From NCBI RefSeq assembly GCF_000372885.1, contig NZ_KB889967.1, positions 186,001 through 250,000 of the forward strand: a stretch of DNA of 64,000 nucleotides. The letters are read 5' to 3'. Numbering within the stretch: the first letter of the stretch is position 1; every line of letters starts with the position of its first letter. The stretch is from Methyloversatilis thermotolerans. Lineage in GTDB: Bacteria > Pseudomonadota > Gammaproteobacteria > Burkholderiales > Rhodocyclaceae. This document shows, one piece after another, positions 1,735 through 9,744 of the stretch. A program made the translations under genes and the position numbers. Below the pieces are notes generated by a model. The model was not told where the DNA came from. It made no database searches and saw only the letters and a program-made list of their open reading frames with translations.

Positions 1735-3366
1735 GTGAAGAATCTGTCCATTTCCGCTCGCCTGGCACTGGGTTTTACCCTCATCACGCTGATTTTCGCG
1801 GCGGTCGCCGTATTCATCGAAATCCAGGCGAACCAGGTGTCGGCAATCGCCCGATTGCTGTCTGAACGCACCCAACCCAAGGTCGAGGTCATCGCCGATC
1901 TGAATGATGCGGTCCAGCGGGTACGCGTCTACACCCGCAGCGCCATCATCGAGACGGAAGAGCAGAAGATGGCCAAGGTGCGCGAGCAACTCGATCATCA
2001 CCTCGGGAACCTTTCGGCCAGCACCGAGCGGCTCGCGCATCTGATCGCACTGCCCGGGGCAGCGCCGGAGGAGGAGAAGCTCTTTGCCGACGTGCGCGAA
2101 CGCCTGGCGCAGTTCTCGTCCATCACAAAGCAGATCGGGGAGCTCGCCTTCGCGAACAGGAACCAGGAGGCGAACGAACTGCTTAACGCAAAACACGGCC
2201 CTGCGGCGATGGCGCTGAACGAGACGACAACGGTGCTCAAGAATCGCATTCGGAGCGACAGTTCCACCGCCTTGAAAGCATTGAATGACGACGCCGATGG
2301 TCTGACCATCGCCGTCATCGTTGCTGCCGCCATGTTCATCGTGGCCAGCGTGCTCATTTCCGTCATGATCACGCGCAGCATCGCTGGTCAGATCGGATCC
2401 ACGCTGCAGGTGGTCAAGCGCATTGCTGCCGGCGACCTGACACAGGACATCCAGCCGGAAGGGCGTAGCGAAATCGCCCTGCTTCAGGCCGAAGTGCAGG
2501 CGATGCAGCGTTATCTGCGCACCATGGTTCACACCATAGGCCAGGCGACTTCGGAGCTCGGGCAGGCGGCCAGCCAGTTGTCGCAGGCGACGCAACAGGT
2601 GCGTTCGTCGTCGGACAGCCAGGCCGGACTTGCCTCGTCGATGGCCGCATCGCTCGAAGAGCTGTCGACCTCGATCAACCATGTCAGCGAGCTCAGCGGC
2701 GAGGCGCGGCAGGTATCGGAGCGGGCAGGCCAGTCGGCGTCGGCGGGTGCAGACGACATCGGGCAGATGGTGGATCAGATCCGCGACGTGACGTCCGGTA
2801 TCGAACAGAGCGCGGAGCGGGCCCAGGCACTGGGCCAGGAGGTATCGCGCATCACCAGCATCGTGCACGTCATCCGCGATGTCGCGGACCAGACCAATCT
2901 GCTTGCGCTCAATGCCGCGATCGAAGCCGCGCGAGCCGGAGAGATGGGACGCGGTTTTGCCGTTGTGGCGGACGAGGTGCGCAAGCTTGCCGAGCAATCG
3001 GCGCGCTCGGCATCGGAAATCACCGATATGGTGGGCCGGATACAGAAGGGTGCAATCGAAGTTTCGGAGCAGATGCAGGGTACGGTCGAACGCGTACGCG
3101 GCGGACTTGCGTCAGCCGAAAATGGTCGCGAACGCGTGCTCGATATCGATCGCAGCTCGCAACAGGTGGTGGGGACGATTTCGGAAGTGTCGGGGGGGCT
3201 GCAGGAACAGGCGACCGCCAGCCAGGAACTTGCCCGCCGCGTCGAGCAGATCGTGCAGATCGTGGAGGAAAACGCCTCCTCCGCCGGCGCGGTGGCCGAT
3301 TCCGCCAGTCAGCTCGCAGGCCTGTCGTCGCGCCTTCAGGATGAAGTGAGCCGTTTCAGGGTCTGA
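1735..3366 (+). CDS. Methyl-accepting chemotaxis protein
   Basis: Chemoreceptor of 543 residues. An N-terminal membrane helix (about 9-29) is followed by a periplasmic four-helix-bundle sensor of about 160 residues, a second membrane helix (about 190-212), a HAMP domain (to about 263) and a long signalling coiled coil. The highly conserved hairpin tip that contacts CheA/CheW is present at about 385-421 ([19 protein letters not shown] and onward). There is no CheR-tethering pentapeptide; the protein ends in FRV just after the coiled coil. GTG start at 1735. The ligand cannot be deduced. It sits between flhB and flhA, 124 bases after flhB, with no che genes in the window. Confidence 0.95.
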
Positions 3367-3434: not shown

Positions 3435-4220
3435 TCAGCTCGCGGGTACGATGCGCTGTCCTTCGAGCCTTACGCGGTCGCCGGTGCGCCAGGGGGGCTC
3501 GTTGTCGAACGAAACCGTGCGGTAATCACCGTTCTCGAGTCTTACGCCCACTTCCCATCGTGACGCGGTGCGCTGGGTCTTTTCGACCTGGTGACCTGCA
3601 TAGGCCCCGCCCGCAATGCCGATGAGCGTGGCTATTGTCCGACCGCTGCCCTTGCCGACCTGGTTGCCGAGCAGACCGCCAACGACGCCGCCCGCGGCTG
3701 CGCCCAGTCCGCTCGCATCTGCGGCCACCTTGAGTTCCCGCACCGATTCGATCAGCCCGCATTGGGCGCAGACCGGCGCAACAGTGGGCTCGTGCGCGAC
3801 CGGTGGCGGGGCGGGAATCAGGTCTATACCCGAATCGTAGTTCGCTCCGGTGTCCGCCACCTTGACCGTCGTACCCGTGCGTTCACCGACGCGATGTACC
3901 GCATGTCGGGCTTCCACTTTGTGGGTGGCCGGCTTTGAAGCAGCCACTTTGGGTGCGGGCTCTGGGCGCGGGCTGGCCGGCAAGGTCTTTTCCTGTGCAG
4001 CCGGAGGCGCGACGGCTACCTGCGAAGATGGCGCTGGCGATGCATCGACCACCGGCGCCTCCGGCGATGCCGGGGCGGTCTGCGGGATGGCGGTCGGCGA
4101 ACCCAGCCATCCGCTCATCCGGGCAATGCCCACCACGCTGAACAGCGTGACCGATAGTGCGGCTACCCATAGCGCGGGGTGCAGGGAACCGACTGGACGG
4201 GATCGAGCCGGTGCGTTCAT
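3435..4220 (-). CDS. Membrane-anchored glycine-zipper (17-kDa antigen type) protein
   Basis: Envelope protein of 261 residues. One N-terminal hydrophobic segment (about 17-36) is followed by a long Pro/Ala-rich linker (about 40-130), then a CAQCG motif near 150. A glycine zipper follows (GLGAAAGGVVGGLLGNQVG, about residues 170-190, then GIAGGAYAGHQVEK), as in the 17-kDa surface antigen / 2TM glycine-zipper family. The C-terminus (RWEVGVRLENGDYRTVSFD) is the small beta domain these proteins usually carry. Start ATG at 4220 with GGAG eight bases upstream. Divergent from flhA; no flagellar role is known for the family. Likely an outer-membrane-associated structural or stress protein. Confidence 0.8.
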   Translation of the reverse strand: MNAPARSRPVGSLHPALWVAALSVTLFSVVGIARMSGWLGSPTAIPQTAPASPEAPVVDASPAPSSQVAVAPPAAQEKTLPASPRPEPAPKVAASKPATHKVEARHAVHRVGERTGTTVKVADTGANYDSGIDLIPAPPPVAHEPTVAPVCAQCGLIESVRELKVAADASGLGAAAGGVVGGLLGNQVGKGSGRTIATLIGIAGGAYAGHQVEKTQRTASRWEVGVRLENGDYRTVSFDNEPPWRTGDRVRLEGQRIVPAS

Positions 4221-4517
4221 GGTGTCGTCTCCATGTGTTCATGTGTTGATCCACGCCACAAGTAACGCATGCAACGGCGAACGAGGGACAAGGGCTTTGT
4301 AAGGGCGTTTTGCGTCATTGCCGGGGCGACGGTCAGGTGTTGCGCCGCAGGATGGTGGCCATGGGGTGGGTGCGCCGGGCGAACGGAGGCCGCGGTCTGA
4401 CACGGCAGTGCGGTGCGCTCGGGCATCCCCCGCTCGCGGTCCGTTCCGCCCAATAGCCGGGGAAAACCCCTTTTCTTTCTCAGGTCTGATGGACACAGCC
4501 TGCGATGAAATGTGGTC
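4221..4517. other. Divergent intergenic region before flhA
   Basis: This 297-base gap separates the minus-strand glycine-zipper gene from flhA and must hold promoters for both. I looked for sigma-54 (GG-N10-GC) and sigma-28 (TAAA-N15-GCCGATAA) elements and found no convincing match; several GG/GC pairs have a 9-base instead of 10-base spacing. A short GGGG-AAAA-CCCC hairpin followed by TTTTCTTTCT at about 4457-4475 lies just before flhA; its 4-bp stem is too weak to call a terminator. Confidence 0.4.
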
Positions 4518-6626
4518 ATGGCTACCTCTCTGTCACTCCGTCAGATCGTCGGCACCCCGAACATCCGCCAGATGGCCGCGCCGCTGCTCATCGTGCTCAT
4601 CCTGTCGATGATGGTGCTGCCGTTGCCGACCTTCGTGCTGGATGTGTTCTTCACCTTCAACATCGCCATGTCGGTCATGGTGATGCTGGTGGCGCTCTAC
4701 ACCACGCGCGCTCTCGACTTTTCGGTCTTCCCGACCATTCTGCTGGTCACCACGCTGTTGCGCCTTTCGCTGAACGTGGCCTCGACCCGCGTCGTGCTGC
4801 TCGAGGGGCATACCGGCCCGGATGCAGCGGGCAAGGTGATCGAGGCTTTCGGTCACTTCCTGGTCGGGGGCAACTACGCGGTGGGCATCATCGTGTTCGT
4901 CATCCTCACGGTGATCAACTTCGTGGTGGTGACCAAGGGCGCCGGACGCATTGCGGAAGTGGGCGCACGCTTCACCCTGGATGCCATGCCCGGCAAGCAG
5001 ATGGCCATCGATGCAGACCTCAACGCCGGCCTCATCGGTGAGGAGGAGGCGCGTCGTCGGCGCCGCGAGATTGCCGACGAGGCGGACTTCTACGGCTCCA
5101 TGGATGGCGCGTCGAAGTTCGTACGTGGCGACGCGGTCGCCGGCATCCTCATCCTGCTCATCAACATGGTGGGCGGTCTGCTGATCGGTGTCATGGATCA
5201 CGACATGAGCGCGGGTCAGGCCGCCAAGGCCTATGTGATGCTGACCATCGGTGATGGTCTGGTCGCACAGATTCCTGCGCTGGTGATATCCATTGCGGCG
5301 GGTCTGGTGGTGTCGCGCGTCGGCAGCGATGGCGACGTAGGTGGCCAGTTGATCGGCCAGCTCTTCGGCAATCCGCGCGTGCTGGCGATTTCCGCCGGCA
5401 TCATGGGCCTGATGGGCATGATTCCCGGCATGCCCAATTTCGTATTCCTGCTGCTGGCCGCGATCCTCGGCTACTTCGCATGGCGTGGATTCAATGCTGC
5501 GGCTTCCCCGGAAGTGCGCGAGGCGGCGGAAAAGGCGGCTGCGGAGAAGGCCAGTGCGCAGGCGGTGACGCCGCCCGAGCAGCAGGAAGCGGCATGGAGC
5601 GATGTCGTGCCGGTCGATACCCTGGGGCTGGAGGTTGGCTATCGACTCATCCCGCTGGTCGATCGCGGCCAGGACGGTGAACTGTTGAAGCGCATACGCG
5701 GCCTGCGCAAGAAGTTCGCCGCGGAGATCGGCTTCCTGACCACGCCTGTGCACATCCGAGACAACCTTGAACTGAAGCCGAATGGTTACCGCATCACGCT
5801 CAAGGGCGTCGAAGTGGGCAGCGGCGAGGCGTATCCGGGCAGCCTGATGGCGATCAATCCCGGACGCGTGGCCGGTGTGCTTCCCGGTCGCGAAGCCAGG
5901 GATCCGGCGTTCGGACTGCCTGCGGTGTGGATAGAACAGGGCTTGCGCGAGCAGGCTCACGCGCTGGGTTACACCGTGGTCGATGCGTCAACCGTCATCG
6001 CCACCCACCTCAACCACCTCATCCTGACCCATGCGGCGGAGCTCTTCGGACGTCAGGAGGCGCAGGCGCTGCTCGATCACGTCGGACGTGAACAGCCGAA
6101 GCTCATCGAGGATCTGGTTCCGAAGGCACTTCCGCTTGCCGTGGTGCAGCGGGTGCTGCAAAGCCTGCTGGAAGAGGGGGTGGCCATCCGCGACATGCGC
6201 TCCATCATCGAAACCCTCGCCGAACACGCGCCGCGTACCCAGGACCCCATGGAGCTCGCCGCCCGCGTGCGGGTCGCTCTTGGTCGCGCCATCGTGCAGC
6301 AGCTATTCCCGGGCAACAGCGACGTACAGGTCATGGTGCTCGATCCGGGGCTGGAACGCCTGCTCGGTCAGGCGCTGAGCGGTGGCGCCGACGGGTCGGT
6401 CATCGAGCCCGGCCTGGCCGACACGCTTCTCAACGAGGTTGCCCGCAACGCGCAGCGTCAGGAAGAAATGGGGCTGCCTGCAGTGCTGCTCGTTCCCGCC
6501 CAGTTGCGCTGGCTGCTGTCGCGCTTCCTGCGCCGGGCGGTGCCCAGCCTCAAGGTTCTCGCGAATTCCGAAGTTCCTGAAACACGCACCATCAAGGTGA
6601 CCTCTGTCATCGGAGTCAAGTCATGA
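4518..6626 (+). CDS. flhA: Flagellar type III export gate protein FlhA
   Basis: FlhA is the largest export-gate protein: an N-terminal membrane part that couples proton flow to secretion and a C-terminal cytoplasmic ring that docks chaperone-substrate complexes. About 702 residues, as usual. The family signature is clear at about residues 140-170 (RIAEVGARFTLDAMPGKQM, then AIDADLNAG). Eight hydrophobic segments fall before about residue 330 and a soluble domain follows. ATG at 4518 is chosen; an in-frame GTG lies two codons upstream at 4512 and no strong ribosome site discriminates. The 3' end overlaps flhF by four bases (ATGA), so the two are probably translationally coupled. Confidence 0.97.
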   Translation: MATSLSLRQIVGTPNIRQMAAPLLIVLILSMMVLPLPTFVLDVFFTFNIAMSVMVMLVALYTTRALDFSVFPTILLVTTLLRLSLNVASTRVVLLEGHTGPDAAGKVIEAFGHFLVGGNYAVGIIVFVILTVINFVVVTKGAGRIAEVGARFTLDAMPGKQMAIDADLNAGLIGEEEARRRRREIADEADFYGSMDGASKFVRGDAVAGILILLINMVGGLLIGVMDHDMSAGQAAKAYVMLTIGDGLVAQIPALVISIAAGLVVSRVGSDGDVGGQLIGQLFGNPRVLAISAGIMGLMGMIPGMPNFVFLLLAAILGYFAWRGFNAAASPEVREAAEKAAAEKASAQAVTPPEQQEAAWSDVVPVDTLGLEVGYRLIPLVDRGQDGELLKRIRGLRKKFAAEIGFLTTPVHIRDNLELKPNGYRITLKGVEVGSGEAYPGSLMAINPGRVAGVLPGREARDPAFGLPAVWIEQGLREQAHALGYTVVDASTVIATHLNHLILTHAAELFGRQEAQALLDHVGREQPKLIEDLVPKALPLAVVQRVLQSLLEEGVAIRDMRSIIETLAEHAPRTQDPMELAARVRVALGRAIVQQLFPGNSDVQVMVLDPGLERLLGQALSGGADGSVIEPGLADTLLNEVARNAQRQEEMGLPAVLLVPAQLRWLLSRFLRRAVPSLKVLANSEVPETRTIKVTSVIGVKS

Positions 6627-8125
6627 CGCCTCGCAAATATCTTGCCGCCACCGCCCGCGACGCTTTGCGGCGCATCAAGGAGGATCTCGGGTCGGATGCC
6701 ATCGTGTTGTCGAACCGAGCGGTCGAGGGCGGTGTCGAGATTCTGGCGCTGCCGGCCAATGCGCTTGAAACGGTGACGGCATCGACGCTGAAGCCGGCGG
6801 TGCAGCCGCAGTTGCCGCCGGCTGCAGTCGAGCCGCCGCCTGCGCCGCCGATGCGCCCCATGGTTCCGCCTCCTGAAGAGGAGGGCTTCGAAGTCAGTCT
6901 GTCCACCTCCATGGCGGCGCGCCGTCCGGCTCCGACCATCGCGCCGCCACCCGTCGAGGTCAGGGCGCCGCGTCCTTGGCAACCCTACAAGCCGCGCGCG
7001 GCAACACCCAACGAGTTGCGCAACATGGCGCGCGGGCAGAGGCAGCCGGAAGCCGGTCAGTCGATGTCGGCGCATGCGGACCTGACGCACCGCGCCGCGG
7101 AGCCGGAGGTCCGTCGGCCGATGACGGCGCAGCACGCACCCGTGACCGAATCCGCGCCTGCCGACAGTGCCTTGCGTGAGGAACTGAACAGCATCCGCCG
7201 CATGCTCGAGCAGCAACTGGCAGGGTTCGCCTGGGGCGAAATGTCGCGTCAGTCACCGCTGAAGACCACGCTGGCTGCCGAACTGCTGGAATCCGGCTTC
7301 AGCGCGGTCACGACCTATCGCCTGCTCGATCAGATCGGCAGCTCGGACAGTCTGGCGGCCGCGCGCAACGAAGTTCGTGCGCTGATCGGTCGGGAACTGA
7401 TCACGCTGGATTCCGACGCCGACATCATCGACCGCGGTGGCGTCTATGCGCTGGTCGGACCGACCGGCGTCGGCAAGACGACCACGACTGCCAAGCTGGC
7501 TGCGCGCTGCGTGGTCCGCCATGGCGCGGACAAGGTCGCACTGCTCACCACGGACGGCTACCGTATCGGTGCCCACGAACAGTTGCGCATCTACGGCCGC
7601 ATCCTCGGTGTCCCGGTCCACGCGGTGCGCGATGCATCCGATCTGCGCCGCATGCTGGTCGAACTGCGCGACAAGCACATGGTGCTGATCGACACGGTGG
7701 GCATGAGCCAGCGTGACCGGGCGGTGACCGAGCAGATCGCCATGCTCTCGTCCAGTGGCGATGTGCGGCGTCTGCTGCTGCTCAATTCGGTGGCGCGGGC
7801 CGATGCGCTGGACGACGTCGTGCGCGCCTATTCTGCGCCGAATGGCGGTGCCGATCTGGCCGGCACCATCATCAGCAAGGTGGATGAGTCGGTCACGCTG
7901 GGGCCGGTCATCGATGTGCTGATGCGGCATCAGTTGCCGCTCTACTACGTGGCCAACGGTCAGCGCGTGCCGGAAGATCTGCACTTGCCCAATCGCACCT
8001 ATCTGATGCACCGCGCGCTGCGCGCAGCGGATGCGGGATCGTCGCAGCACCTCAGCCCCCAGGATGCCGGTCTGTTGATGTCGGCTTCGCGTCGCGAACA
8101 GCGCAGCGGGGTGAGCCGTGGCTGA
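6623..8125 (+). CDS. flhF: Flagellar SRP-family GTPase FlhF
   Basis: FlhF is a signal-recognition-particle-type GTPase that sets the position (usually the pole) where the flagellum is built. The 500-residue protein has the expected layout: an N-terminal basic region starting MTPRKYLAATARDALRRIK, a Pro-rich linker to about 165, an N domain, then the GTPase. The P-loop GPTGVGKT is at 279-286, TTDGYRIGAHEQL follows, and the DTVG motif starts at D357. It overlaps flhA by four bases and fleN by eight, a coupled flhA-flhF-fleN unit typical of polar flagellates. Confidence 0.96.
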   Translation: MTPRKYLAATARDALRRIKEDLGSDAIVLSNRAVEGGVEILALPANALETVTASTLKPAVQPQLPPAAVEPPPAPPMRPMVPPPEEEGFEVSLSTSMAARRPAPTIAPPPVEVRAPRPWQPYKPRAATPNELRNMARGQRQPEAGQSMSAHADLTHRAAEPEVRRPMTAQHAPVTESAPADSALREELNSIRRMLEQQLAGFAWGEMSRQSPLKTTLAAELLESGFSAVTTYRLLDQIGSSDSLAAARNEVRALIGRELITLDSDADIIDRGGVYALVGPTGVGKTTTTAKLAARCVVRHGADKVALLTTDGYRIGAHEQLRIYGRILGVPVHAVRDASDLRRMLVELRDKHMVLIDTVGMSQRDRAVTEQIAMLSSSGDVRRLLLLNSVARADALDDVVRAYSAPNGGADLAGTIISKVDESVTLGPVIDVLMRHQLPLYYVANGQRVPEDLHLPNRTYLMHRALRAADAGSSQHLSPQDAGLLMSASRREQRSGVSRG

Positions 8126-8996
8126 CTTCATGCACGATCAGGCCTCCGGTCTGCGCGCCATGTTCCGACGCTTCCCGTCGCAACGCCTGGCCTTTGCCGG
8201 CGCGACGCCGGGCGCAGGCGCAACGTCGCTCGCCGTGGCGGCCGCGCTCGAAGCGGCGCGCAGCGGCCTGCGGGTAACCTTGATCGACGAGCACCAGGGG
8301 GCCGGTTCGGCCACCGCGCGGCTCGGTCTCACCTCGCGTGTCGATCTCCTGCAGGCGATCAACCGCGATGTGCCGCTGGCTGCTGTGCGGCGTACCTCGC
8401 AACACGGCATCGCCGTGGTGCCGGCAGCGCGGCTTGCCGTTGCGTCCGGTCAGCTCAACCGGCTGCAGACAGAGGCGCTCGATGAAGCGTTGAGTGAGCT
8501 GTCGCGCGACAGCGAACTGCTGGTGATCGACTGTGCGCCGGACGAAGGCGTGCTTTCAGCGCTGGCGCGGCGCGCCGACCGGCTGGCGGTCGTGACCATG
8601 GCGACCGGCGTAGGCATGACCGCCGCCTACGCGTTGATCAAGCGTCATCTGACCGGTAATGCGCCGGTCGCAACGGCGCGCGTCTGCCCGGTCCACGTTG
8701 GCGTCAGCCGGGTGCGCAGCGAGGTCGACGCGCGTCAGGCGTTTGCCAGTTTGAATGGCGTGGTGTCCGAGCATCTGGGCAGCGCGCTGCACTGGCTCGG
8801 TTGCCTGCCGACTGGATTCCAGCGACCTGCATTCTCGCCGGCCGGTGAGGATGCCCTCAAGATCGGTCGCGATCTTGCCGAAAAGCTCTTCGTGTCCCGC
8901 GAGCCGGAGCATTCCGCGCCAGACCGTATCCAGGACGGCGGCCTGCATCCCGACCCGAATGGTTTCAAAGAAGGAATTCCGGCCCGCGTGGCCTGA
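8118..8996 (+). CDS. fleN: FleN/FlhG, MinD-type flagellar number regulator with degenerate Walker A
   Basis: FleN (FlhG) is a MinD/ParA-family protein that limits flagellar number, stimulates FlhF GTPase activity and, in sigma-54 systems, restrains FleQ. The 292-residue protein keeps the N-terminal DQASGLR motif (residues 7-13), which matches the FlhF-activating helix, and a Walker B-like stretch LLVIDCAPDEG. The deviant Walker A is not intact: residues 28-37 read GATPGAGATS, so both lysines of the canonical xKGGxGK[T/S] are absent (Thr and Ala instead). ATP binding is therefore doubtful. Start GTG at 8118 overlaps flhF by eight bases; an in-frame ATG at 8130 is possible. fliA follows after 31 bases. 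Confidence 0.9.
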   Translation: MADFMHDQASGLRAMFRRFPSQRLAFAGATPGAGATSLAVAAALEAARSGLRVTLIDEHQGAGSATARLGLTSRVDLLQAINRDVPLAAVRRTSQHGIAVVPAARLAVASGQLNRLQTEALDEALSELSRDSELLVIDCAPDEGVLSALARRADRLAVVTMATGVGMTAAYALIKRHLTGNAPVATARVCPVHVGVSRVRSEVDARQAFASLNGVVSEHLGSALHWLGCLPTGFQRPAFSPAGEDALKIGRDLAEKLFVSREPEHSAPDRIQDGGLHPDPNGFKEGIPARVA

Positions 8997-9027: not shown

Positions 9028-9744
9028 ATGTATACCGCATCCGGAACATTGGACCGCGACCAGCTGGCGAAACACTATGCACCTCTGGTCAAGCGCATTG
9101 CCTACCACCTGATGGCCAAGTTGCCGGCCAGCGTTCAGGTCGAAGACATCATCCAGAACGGCATGCTGGGCTTGCTCGACGCGATGAGCCGCTACGAGGA
9201 AGGCCTGGGCGCACAGTTCGAAACCTACGCCGTGCAGCGCATCCGTGGCGCGATGCTGGATGGCTTGCGCGAGAACGATTGGTTGCCGCGCAGTCTGCGG
9301 CGCGACATGCGACGCATCGAAACCGCCATTCACACGCTTGAGCAGAAGAACGGTCGCCAGCCGACCGAGGGCGAACTTGCCGATTCGCTGGGCCTGCCGC
9401 TTGCCGAGTACCAGAAGATGCTGCAGGAGGCGCGGGGCTATCAGCTCGTTTATTTCGAGGACTTCACCGATGGCGACGACGACGACTACCTCGATCGCCA
9501 CAGCGTCGGCACCGAAGATCTGGATCCGCTCGAGCGCCTGCTGGACAAGAACATGCGCGACGTGCTGGTGCGCGCCATCGGCGATCTTCCCGAGCGCGAA
9601 AAGACGGTCATGGGGCTCTACTACGAGGAGGATCTGAACCTGCGCGAGATCGGGGAAATACTCGGCGTGTCCGAGTCGCGAGTATGTCAGCTACACAGTC
9701 AGGCCATCGCTCGTCTGCGCAGCCGCATCGCCAGCCGCGCCTGA
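9028..9744 (+). CDS. fliA: RNA polymerase sigma-28 factor FliA
   Basis: FliA directs RNA polymerase to late flagellar and chemotaxis promoters. At 238 residues the length is standard. Visible parts are region 2 (about 25-95: PLVKRIAYHLMAKLP, then VEDIIQNGMLGLLDAM and QFETYAVQRIRGAMLD), region 3 (LPRSLRRDMRRIE) and region 4 with a helix-turn-helix near the end (LREIGEILGVSESRVCQLHS). The ATG at 9028 has GAGGACG upstream. Its antagonist flgM is encoded 2.8 kb away on the other strand, behind what looks like a FliA-dependent promoter. motC follows after 10 bases. Confidence 0.97.
   Translation: MYTASGTLDRDQLAKHYAPLVKRIAYHLMAKLPASVQVEDIIQNGMLGLLDAMSRYEEGLGAQFETYAVQRIRGAMLDGLRENDWLPRSLRRDMRRIETAIHTLEQKNGRQPTEGELADSLGLPLAEYQKMLQEARGYQLVYFEDFTDGDDDDYLDRHSVGTEDLDPLERLLDKNMRDVLVRAIGDLPEREKTVMGLYYEEDLNLREIGEILGVSESRVCQLHSQAIARLRSRIASRA

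Follow-up and report, generated by a model that had tools for sequence, protein, structure and literature searches.

The FlhG of Methyloversatilis thermotolerans, a putative pseudo-ATPase with a conserved FlhF activator helix

The flhFG locus

The window analysed here is a stretch of 64,000 nucleotides of Methyloversatilis thermotolerans (contig NZ_KB889967.1, positions 186,001 to 250,000), whose features are collected in Table 1. The flhG gene lies directly downstream of flhF, with an overlap of 8 bases, and fliA comes next. A preliminary description of this DNA had named the open reading frame FlhG, and the assignment is borne out by its placement between flhF and fliA, by its FleN and FlhG sequence relatives and by its MinD-like predicted fold. 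Among sequences of solved structures, the closest ones in a sequence search were FleN (E 4e-16) and FlhG (E 1.2e-9); the Pfam and NCBIfam matches were weak and below the cut-offs. The product is FlhG by descent and, judged by its sequence, is no ATPase of the MinD/ParA kind. A search of the genome for a further FlhG with intact motifs found none and returned, at E <= 1, only ParA and two weak, unrelated-looking matches. The ParA of the same genome (L002) carries a normal KGGVGKT. A search of named plasmid records gave one match only, Pseudomonas fleN. The usual flhBAFG run is broken up in the window, where flhB is separated from flhA by a chemoreceptor gene and a divergent glycine-zipper gene.

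Table 1 Features of the flhFG region in the window
Feature	Position	Strand	Remarks
Chemoreceptor gene	1735-3366	+	
Glycine-zipper gene	3435-4220	-	
flhA, upstream in the same gene run	4512..6626	+	
flhF, SRP-type GTPase partner	6623..8125	+	500 aa
flhG, putative pseudo-ATPase form	8118..8996	+	292 aa, GTG start, stop included
DQASGLR, residues 7-13, FlhF activator helix	8136..8156	+	Sequence; helix 8-16 in the model
Vestigial P-loop without its two lysines, GATPGAGATS, residues 28-37	8199..8228	+	Sequence; dN/dS 0.369 (10 codons)
Switch I remnant DEHQG, residues 57-61	8286..8300	+	Alignment; His59 in place of the second Asp of DxD
Switch II remnant DCAPD, residues 138-142	8529..8543	+	D(T/S)AAG in other gammaproteobacteria
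Conserved patch TAAYALIK, T168-K175	8619..8642	+	Tyr171 and Lys175 kept, mini-FlhGs included
fliA, downstream neighbour	9028..9744	+	

The N-terminal DQASGLR reported in the preliminary description was recovered in the translation of the gene, and its Gln8 is presumably the catalytic residue. D7, Q8, A9, L12 and R13 are invariant in the 111 rows of our alignment of Burkholderiales FlhGs (alignment A1). The replacement of both Walker A lysines, also reported before, was seen in the translation as well as in the alignment columns, where the lysine positions hold Thr30 and Ala35. The deviant Walker A xKGGxGK[T/S] of MinD/ParA-type ATPases is hence missing from the window FlhG. Two further changes have to be added to the earlier account, namely the loss of the second, catalytic Asp of DxD, replaced by His59, and that of the D-T-A-A-G of switch II, which reads DCAPD. 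The protein has four lysines only, at positions 175, 248, 256 and 284, and an alternative pocket lysine, which the preliminary description had named as an objection to the loss, was ruled out because residues 1-174 are lysine-free. Lys175 is not a replacement either, as its counterpart is found in 59 of 59 normal FlhGs. Seven relatives with 72-77% identity likewise have neither lysine (two of them, L005 and L218, seem to be of one species). As these relatives and most of the order share the loss, it does not result from chance or a sequencing slip.

Survey of FlhG beside flhF

The survey was anchored on FlhF (TIGR03499), the downstream gene being read as FlhG, because selection by FlhG sequence was to be avoided; the first 70 loci of the window's family came from an FlhG search, and the remaining FlhF-positive genomes of that family were added later. 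The order sample comprised 120 genomes, 83 of them above the FlhF cut-off, and the class sample 149 genomes, with 74 above it. In the family sample of 101 genomes, FlhF was found in 88 at E 1e-35 and was above the cut-off in 87. FlhF was found in 60 of the 150 genomes of the phylum sample at E 1e-40, 10 of the 60 not being fetched in that sample. The class-sample FlhGs are the 70 read out of 71 fetched, of 72 (G352, at a contig end, was left out). Alignment A1 keeps 111 of 156 possible rows, after removal of 13 very divergent ones and of 32 by hand. In eroded rows the lost P-loop could be aligned only approximately, and pattern counts are therefore given alongside the alignment columns. Trees were computed with FastTree (208 FlhF rows) or in quick IQ-TREE runs (f195), and contain many weak or long branches.

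Loss of the ATPase motifs in Burkholderiales

Of the 165 Burkholderiales FlhGs read beside flhF, 163 carry DQAxxLR, none carries KGGxGK[ST] and one carries K[GA]GxGK[ST]. In the window's family (87 of 88 read, G065 being left out at a contig end) the counts are 87 for DQAxxLR, 0 for K[GA]GxGK[ST] and 12 for GxxxxGK[ST]; in the rest of the order (78 of 79 read) they are 76, 1 (L144) and 15. The alignment and tree mapping proposed in the preliminary description thus have the lysine loss running through Burkholderiales, with the Walker motif kept in 69 of 70 other Gammaproteobacteria of the class sample; the exception, L210, has a cut frame. The phylum sample added 48 new loci, and the Walker motif was present in 41 of 41 readable non-Burkholderiales FlhGs, two genomes of these 41 being shared with the class sample. 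The other new loci were two Burkholderiales and five without FlhG by profile, three of which, from the gammaproteobacterial family f195, carry a P-loop-free FlhG.

Four pocket features, i.e. the signature lysine, the P-loop lysine, the second Asp of DxD and the AxG of switch II, were then counted by alignment column, leaving out L210 and a mini-FlhG (L177). All four are present in 59 of 59 other gammaproteobacterial FlhGs and occur together in 0 of 148 Burkholderiales FlhGs, among which the signature lysine was found in 4, the P-loop lysine in 35, the second Asp in 4 and AxG in 15. None of the four is kept in 103 of the 148, one in 33, two in 11 and three in a single protein, L144, which keeps both lysines. 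The P-loop lysine position holds an arginine in 43 of the 148, and the aspartates of the old switches are often kept (Asp57 in 137, Asp138 in 102). The C-terminal FF pair is found in 58 of 59 other gammaproteobacterial FlhGs and in 0 of 148 from Burkholderiales in the same columns, in a tail that is poorly aligned and of low confidence in the model.

In the tree of 208 FlhF rows, Burkholderiales form one side of a branch with a support of 90. The P-loop lysine shows at least 14 changes on this tree, and DQAxxLR at least 15. The distribution suggests that the signature lysine was lost early and the P-loop lysine repeatedly later; the direction is read as loss because the canonical state is found outside the order. 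FlhF keeps the looser G1 pattern in 208 of 208 rows, including 149 of 149 from Burkholderiales, where TKxD is present in 149 and DTxG in 148 rows; the stricter GPTGxGKTTT occurs in 140 of 147 Burkholderiales and in 30 of 59 other rows.

The exceptions within the order are genome G193, without FlhG beside flhF, and L165 and L180, without a strict DQAxxLR. Outside Burkholderiales, strict DQAxxLR was read in 39 of the 70 class-sample FlhGs and the relaxed QAxx[LMI] in 44; among the 31 without the strict form, L193, L195, L196 and L198, for example, keep KGGxGK[ST], a combination published for Pseudomonas FleN. The FlhGs of genera g15 and g39 (L229, L230, L231 and L232) have DQAxTLR and no recognisable Tyr/Lys patch and, on their sequences, are another decay route.

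Predicted fold of the window FlhG

The AlphaFold2 model, built on the 111 aligned Burkholderiales FlhGs, has a pLDDT of 85.1 and a pTM of 0.82. It presents a helix at residues 8-16 followed by a MinD-like alpha/beta fold, and is mostly of low confidence beyond about residue 260. The first Foldseek matches were FlhG (4rz3, E 8.9e-15, and 4rz2) and FleN (5j1j). With VIA, FleN 5j1j gave a Z of 24.7 (rmsd 2.7, 235 residues) and FlhG 4rz3 a Z of 24.2. The structure prediction called for in the preliminary description therefore supports an intact fold, while the pocket itself was judged from sequence, where the lysines are absent. The predicted MinD-like fold is thus retained while the pocket residues disappear from the sequence.

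FlhG forms without a P-loop

In one genome of the window's family (G019), a frame of 133 residues between flhF and fliA fuses the helix directly to the last part of FlhG. The genus g19 of this family matched in 18 of 19 genomes (G376 being without a match), with 17 mini-FlhGs (85-111 residues from the Asp onwards) and a single full-length protein without a P-loop (G371, L263). Compared with this full-length L263, the minis miss one block of about 136 residues, which holds the P-loop, switch I and switch II. Minis were found in two genomes of genus g23 too (L236, L237). In 20 minis, D, Q, A, G, L, R and R are invariant, as is the Tyr/Lys patch. Their start codons are uncertain, some having only TTG upstream of the helix. 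The model of a mini (pLDDT 76.3, pTM 0.60) consists of a helix and a beta-alpha-beta-alpha-beta arrangement, and each of its ten best fold matches is a FleN or an FlhG, with eight at E <= 0.001. A C-terminal DSVL tail is common to many minis (L223, L225-L228, L237, L256, L257 and L264), is also present in the full-length relative L263, and could possibly be a docking tail.

A second P-loop-free form was found in f195, which we guess to be perhaps Halomonadaceae, and, in the window's family, in a single genome (G048, L345). The frame of its FlhF spans 727-780 residues and includes a C-terminal extension, and the gene that follows starts with DQA(A/S/Q)GLR and has no P-loop. In f195, 23 of 51 genomes match, with DQAxxLR in 23 of 23 and a P-loop in 0 of 23; of the 28 others, only G419 was examined further, and it holds a more diverged copy found by motif only (L342). 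The Asp codon is located 11-43 bases past the flhF stop in 22 of the 23 loci, the remaining one holding no FlhF. The Tyr/Lys patch is kept in part, LK or LR replacing IK. As the three f195 FlhFs tested nest within Burkholderiales (starred 96-100, quick IQ-TREE), the FlhF/FlhG system probably moved into f195 by transfer. The f195 genomes are an exception to the rule of the Walker motif outside the order.

Long FlhF frames of 727-879 residues with C-terminal extensions were seen in L289, L290 and L308 (f195), L233 (G048), L162 and L167, and the extensions of f195 and G048 are alike. The FlhF of G193 (L167/L344) has 879 residues, no FlhG was found beside its flhF, and the stretch past flhF shows proline-rich repeats (GPTAPRPHGPTAP-like) in several frames. 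The gammaproteobacterial family f199 (L279, L281) has a very long-branched FlhF and no FlhG in the fetched stretch.

Selection on flhG

The dN/dS ratios were obtained by simple counting on eight Methyloversatilis-type flhG genes, two of which look like one species, and short regions are noisy. The ratio is 0.195 overall, 0.086 for residues 7-16, 0.369 for residues 28-37, 0.121 for residues 156-232 and 0.422 for the tail. FlhF of six of the eight genomes gave 0.159, and 16 minis gave 0.27. Selection on flhG is purifying and, therefore, this is not a dying gene.

FleQ and FlhDC

FleQ was not convincingly detected in the order. No PF06490 match was found in the window genome (G000) at E 1e-5, and the matches in 10 of 120 order genomes are all marginal (27.8-31.8 bits); in the class sample, 53 of 149 genomes match at 42 bits or more, up to 104.3. 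FleQ loss alone is insufficient in general as a cause, because Bacillus, which is not known to have FleQ, keeps the ATPase. FlhC was found in 43 of the 120 order genomes, the window genome included. FlhDC as the cause of the lysine loss was rejected: the P-loop lysine is kept in 9 of 31 genomes with strong FlhC and in 14 of 47 without, the latter group including 4 genomes with weak FlhC matches, so that FlhC presence does not predict the loss (Fisher p = 1.0).

Discussion

The reading that we favour, with a probability of about three in four, is that the window FlhG is an orthologue turned pseudo-ATPase, which would activate the FlhF GTPase without ATP through its N-terminal helix. The glutamine of DQAxxLR would complete the catalytic site of the homodimeric FlhF GTPase and so bring about GTP hydrolysis. 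The MinD-like body would no longer bind or hydrolyse ATP and, because of this, would not form the ATP-locked dimer; apparently devoid of the usual C-terminal FF membrane motif, as far as the poorly aligned tail allows, it would be at most a carrier with a docking surface around Tyr171 and Lys175, and FlhF activation would proceed without ATP. The ATP switch may have served partners since lost, FleQ being the obvious one, and would have been released with the disappearance of FleQ from the lineage, FlhF activation being retained.

The preliminary description had already proposed an ATP-independent FlhF activator. The comparison argues well for it, since the helix is near-invariant, the ATPase elements decay and P-loop-free forms exist; what has to be revised is its scope, as this is not one odd protein but the rule in Burkholderiales. 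Its other suggestion, that the number of flagella is controlled in a different manner, is more tentative: FleQ, as the usual ATP-dependent partner, was not convincingly detected in the order, but FlhC does not tell which lineages gave up the P-loop lysine. The proposal agrees with Bacillus subtilis, where Gln8 of DQAxxLR stimulates FlhF, the Q8A variant closely resembles the flhG deletion and no effect was discerned for the hydrolysis-dead D65A variant; according to the authors of that study, the central role of FlhG is thus to stimulate FlhF (PMC12327844). Direct transfer from D65A is weakened, as this variant stops hydrolysis but still binds ATP and as the ATP-binding variant K36A loses GpsB binding (PMC12327844), so that ATP binding does matter in B. 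subtilis. In Burkholderia cenocepacia, 80% of the cells lack flagella after flhF deletion (PMC4905959), and FlhF is therefore of importance in Burkholderiales. No flhG mutant from this order was found in the articles consulted, and the literature searches, which covered freely accessible papers, gave no prior report of an ATPase-less FlhG.

Some Burkholderiales FlhGs may still bind nucleotide, as the P-loop lysine is kept in about a quarter of them and both lysines in L144, and the old pocket may have some residual use, given how often Asp57 and Asp138 are retained. A cryptic nucleotide protein, in whose pocket ATP or another nucleotide is bound despite the missing lysines and for which binding rather than hydrolysis matters, would also fit these two aspartates, the arginine often found at the P-loop lysine position and the alpha/beta fold predicted intact. 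We nevertheless regard it as unlikely, considering that the first 174 residues of the window FlhG hold no lysine, that the loop shows free variation in its sequence and its length and has a higher dN/dS than the remainder of the core, and that whole genera manage without the domain. More doubtful still is a scaffold whose main job is to dock another partner, a C-ring protein or a landmark, on the Tyr171/Lys175 patch, with FlhF activation secondary: the near-invariance of T168, Y171 and K175 in alignment A1, the invariant Y and K of the minis, the low dN/dS of residues 156-232 and the Geobacillus FlhG surface that binds FliY and GpsB (PMC12327844) speak for it, but the most conserved stretch is the helix, and the f195 form keeps the patch only partly. 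Such a role may be true alongside the activation of FlhF.

That the gene is simply decaying under relaxed selection was rejected and seems to us scarcely credible. The faster evolution of the P-loop and the C-terminal tail, and the wide variation of FlhG in length and sequence, would be expected of it; against this stand the purifying selection, with an overall ratio near that of FlhF and constraint on the minis too, and the near-universal presence of FlhG beside flhF (in 78 of the 79 genomes of the order that are not from the family and in 87 of the 88 that are, the 88th ending at a contig edge).

The pseudo-ATPase that we propose can be set beside known systems. A review presents FlhG as a MinD-like ATPase that helps to set flagellar number and place through membrane binding and an ATP-dependent dimer, and covers this dimer, the membrane tail and FlrA/FleQ inhibition; a word search of its text gave neither "lysine" nor "degenerate", and "Walker" in the references only (PMC12826062). 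FlhG/YlxH of Bacillus and Geobacillus (4rz2, 4rz3) has the same N-terminal DQAxxLR helix, gene position after flhF and MinD-like fold (PMC12826062), but differs in being an ATPase that dimerises in dependence on ATP and has a membrane tail (PMC12327844), lysines, catalytic Asp and switch II all being changed in the window FlhG. Pseudomonas FleN (5j1j, 8p53) comes closest in sequence among the solved relatives and ranks among the best fold matches; it is the mirror image, as it keeps the ATPase, binds FleQ and lacks DQAXXLR (PMC12713375). With the MinD/ParA deviant Walker A ATPases, the window FlhG shares the predicted fold, and differs from them in having neither xKGGxGK[T/S] nor DxD, with profile matches weak and below cut-off. 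A precedent for an NTPase fold that became an interaction module after Walker A loss is the BcsE N-terminal domain, a divergent RecA-like ATPase, although it is RecA-like rather than MinD-like and belongs to another pathway (PMC7439463).

It seems probable to us that FlhG consists of two separable modules that have been dissected both ways, FleN keeping the ATPase and the Burkholderiales type the activator, with FlhF GTPase activation as the irreducible part. If so, the activator-only route would reach a mini-FlhG of about 100 residues and, as a second form devoid of the P-loop, the one that would have entered f195 together with FlhF. The ATP cycle may be dispensable for the core job of FlhG, since the ATP parts are lost, the helix is kept and one genus has shrunk the protein to that size. 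What appears new, in this comparison of sequences, is the natural separation of the two modules, the window FlhG being an ordinary example of an order-wide state. To name Burkholderiales FlhG an ATPase or a FleN antiactivator would be misleading. The minis are ready-made minimal constructs, and the role of the ATP cycle, if FlhF activation alone suffices, becomes a testable question, as a large bacterial order apparently uses FlhG without it.
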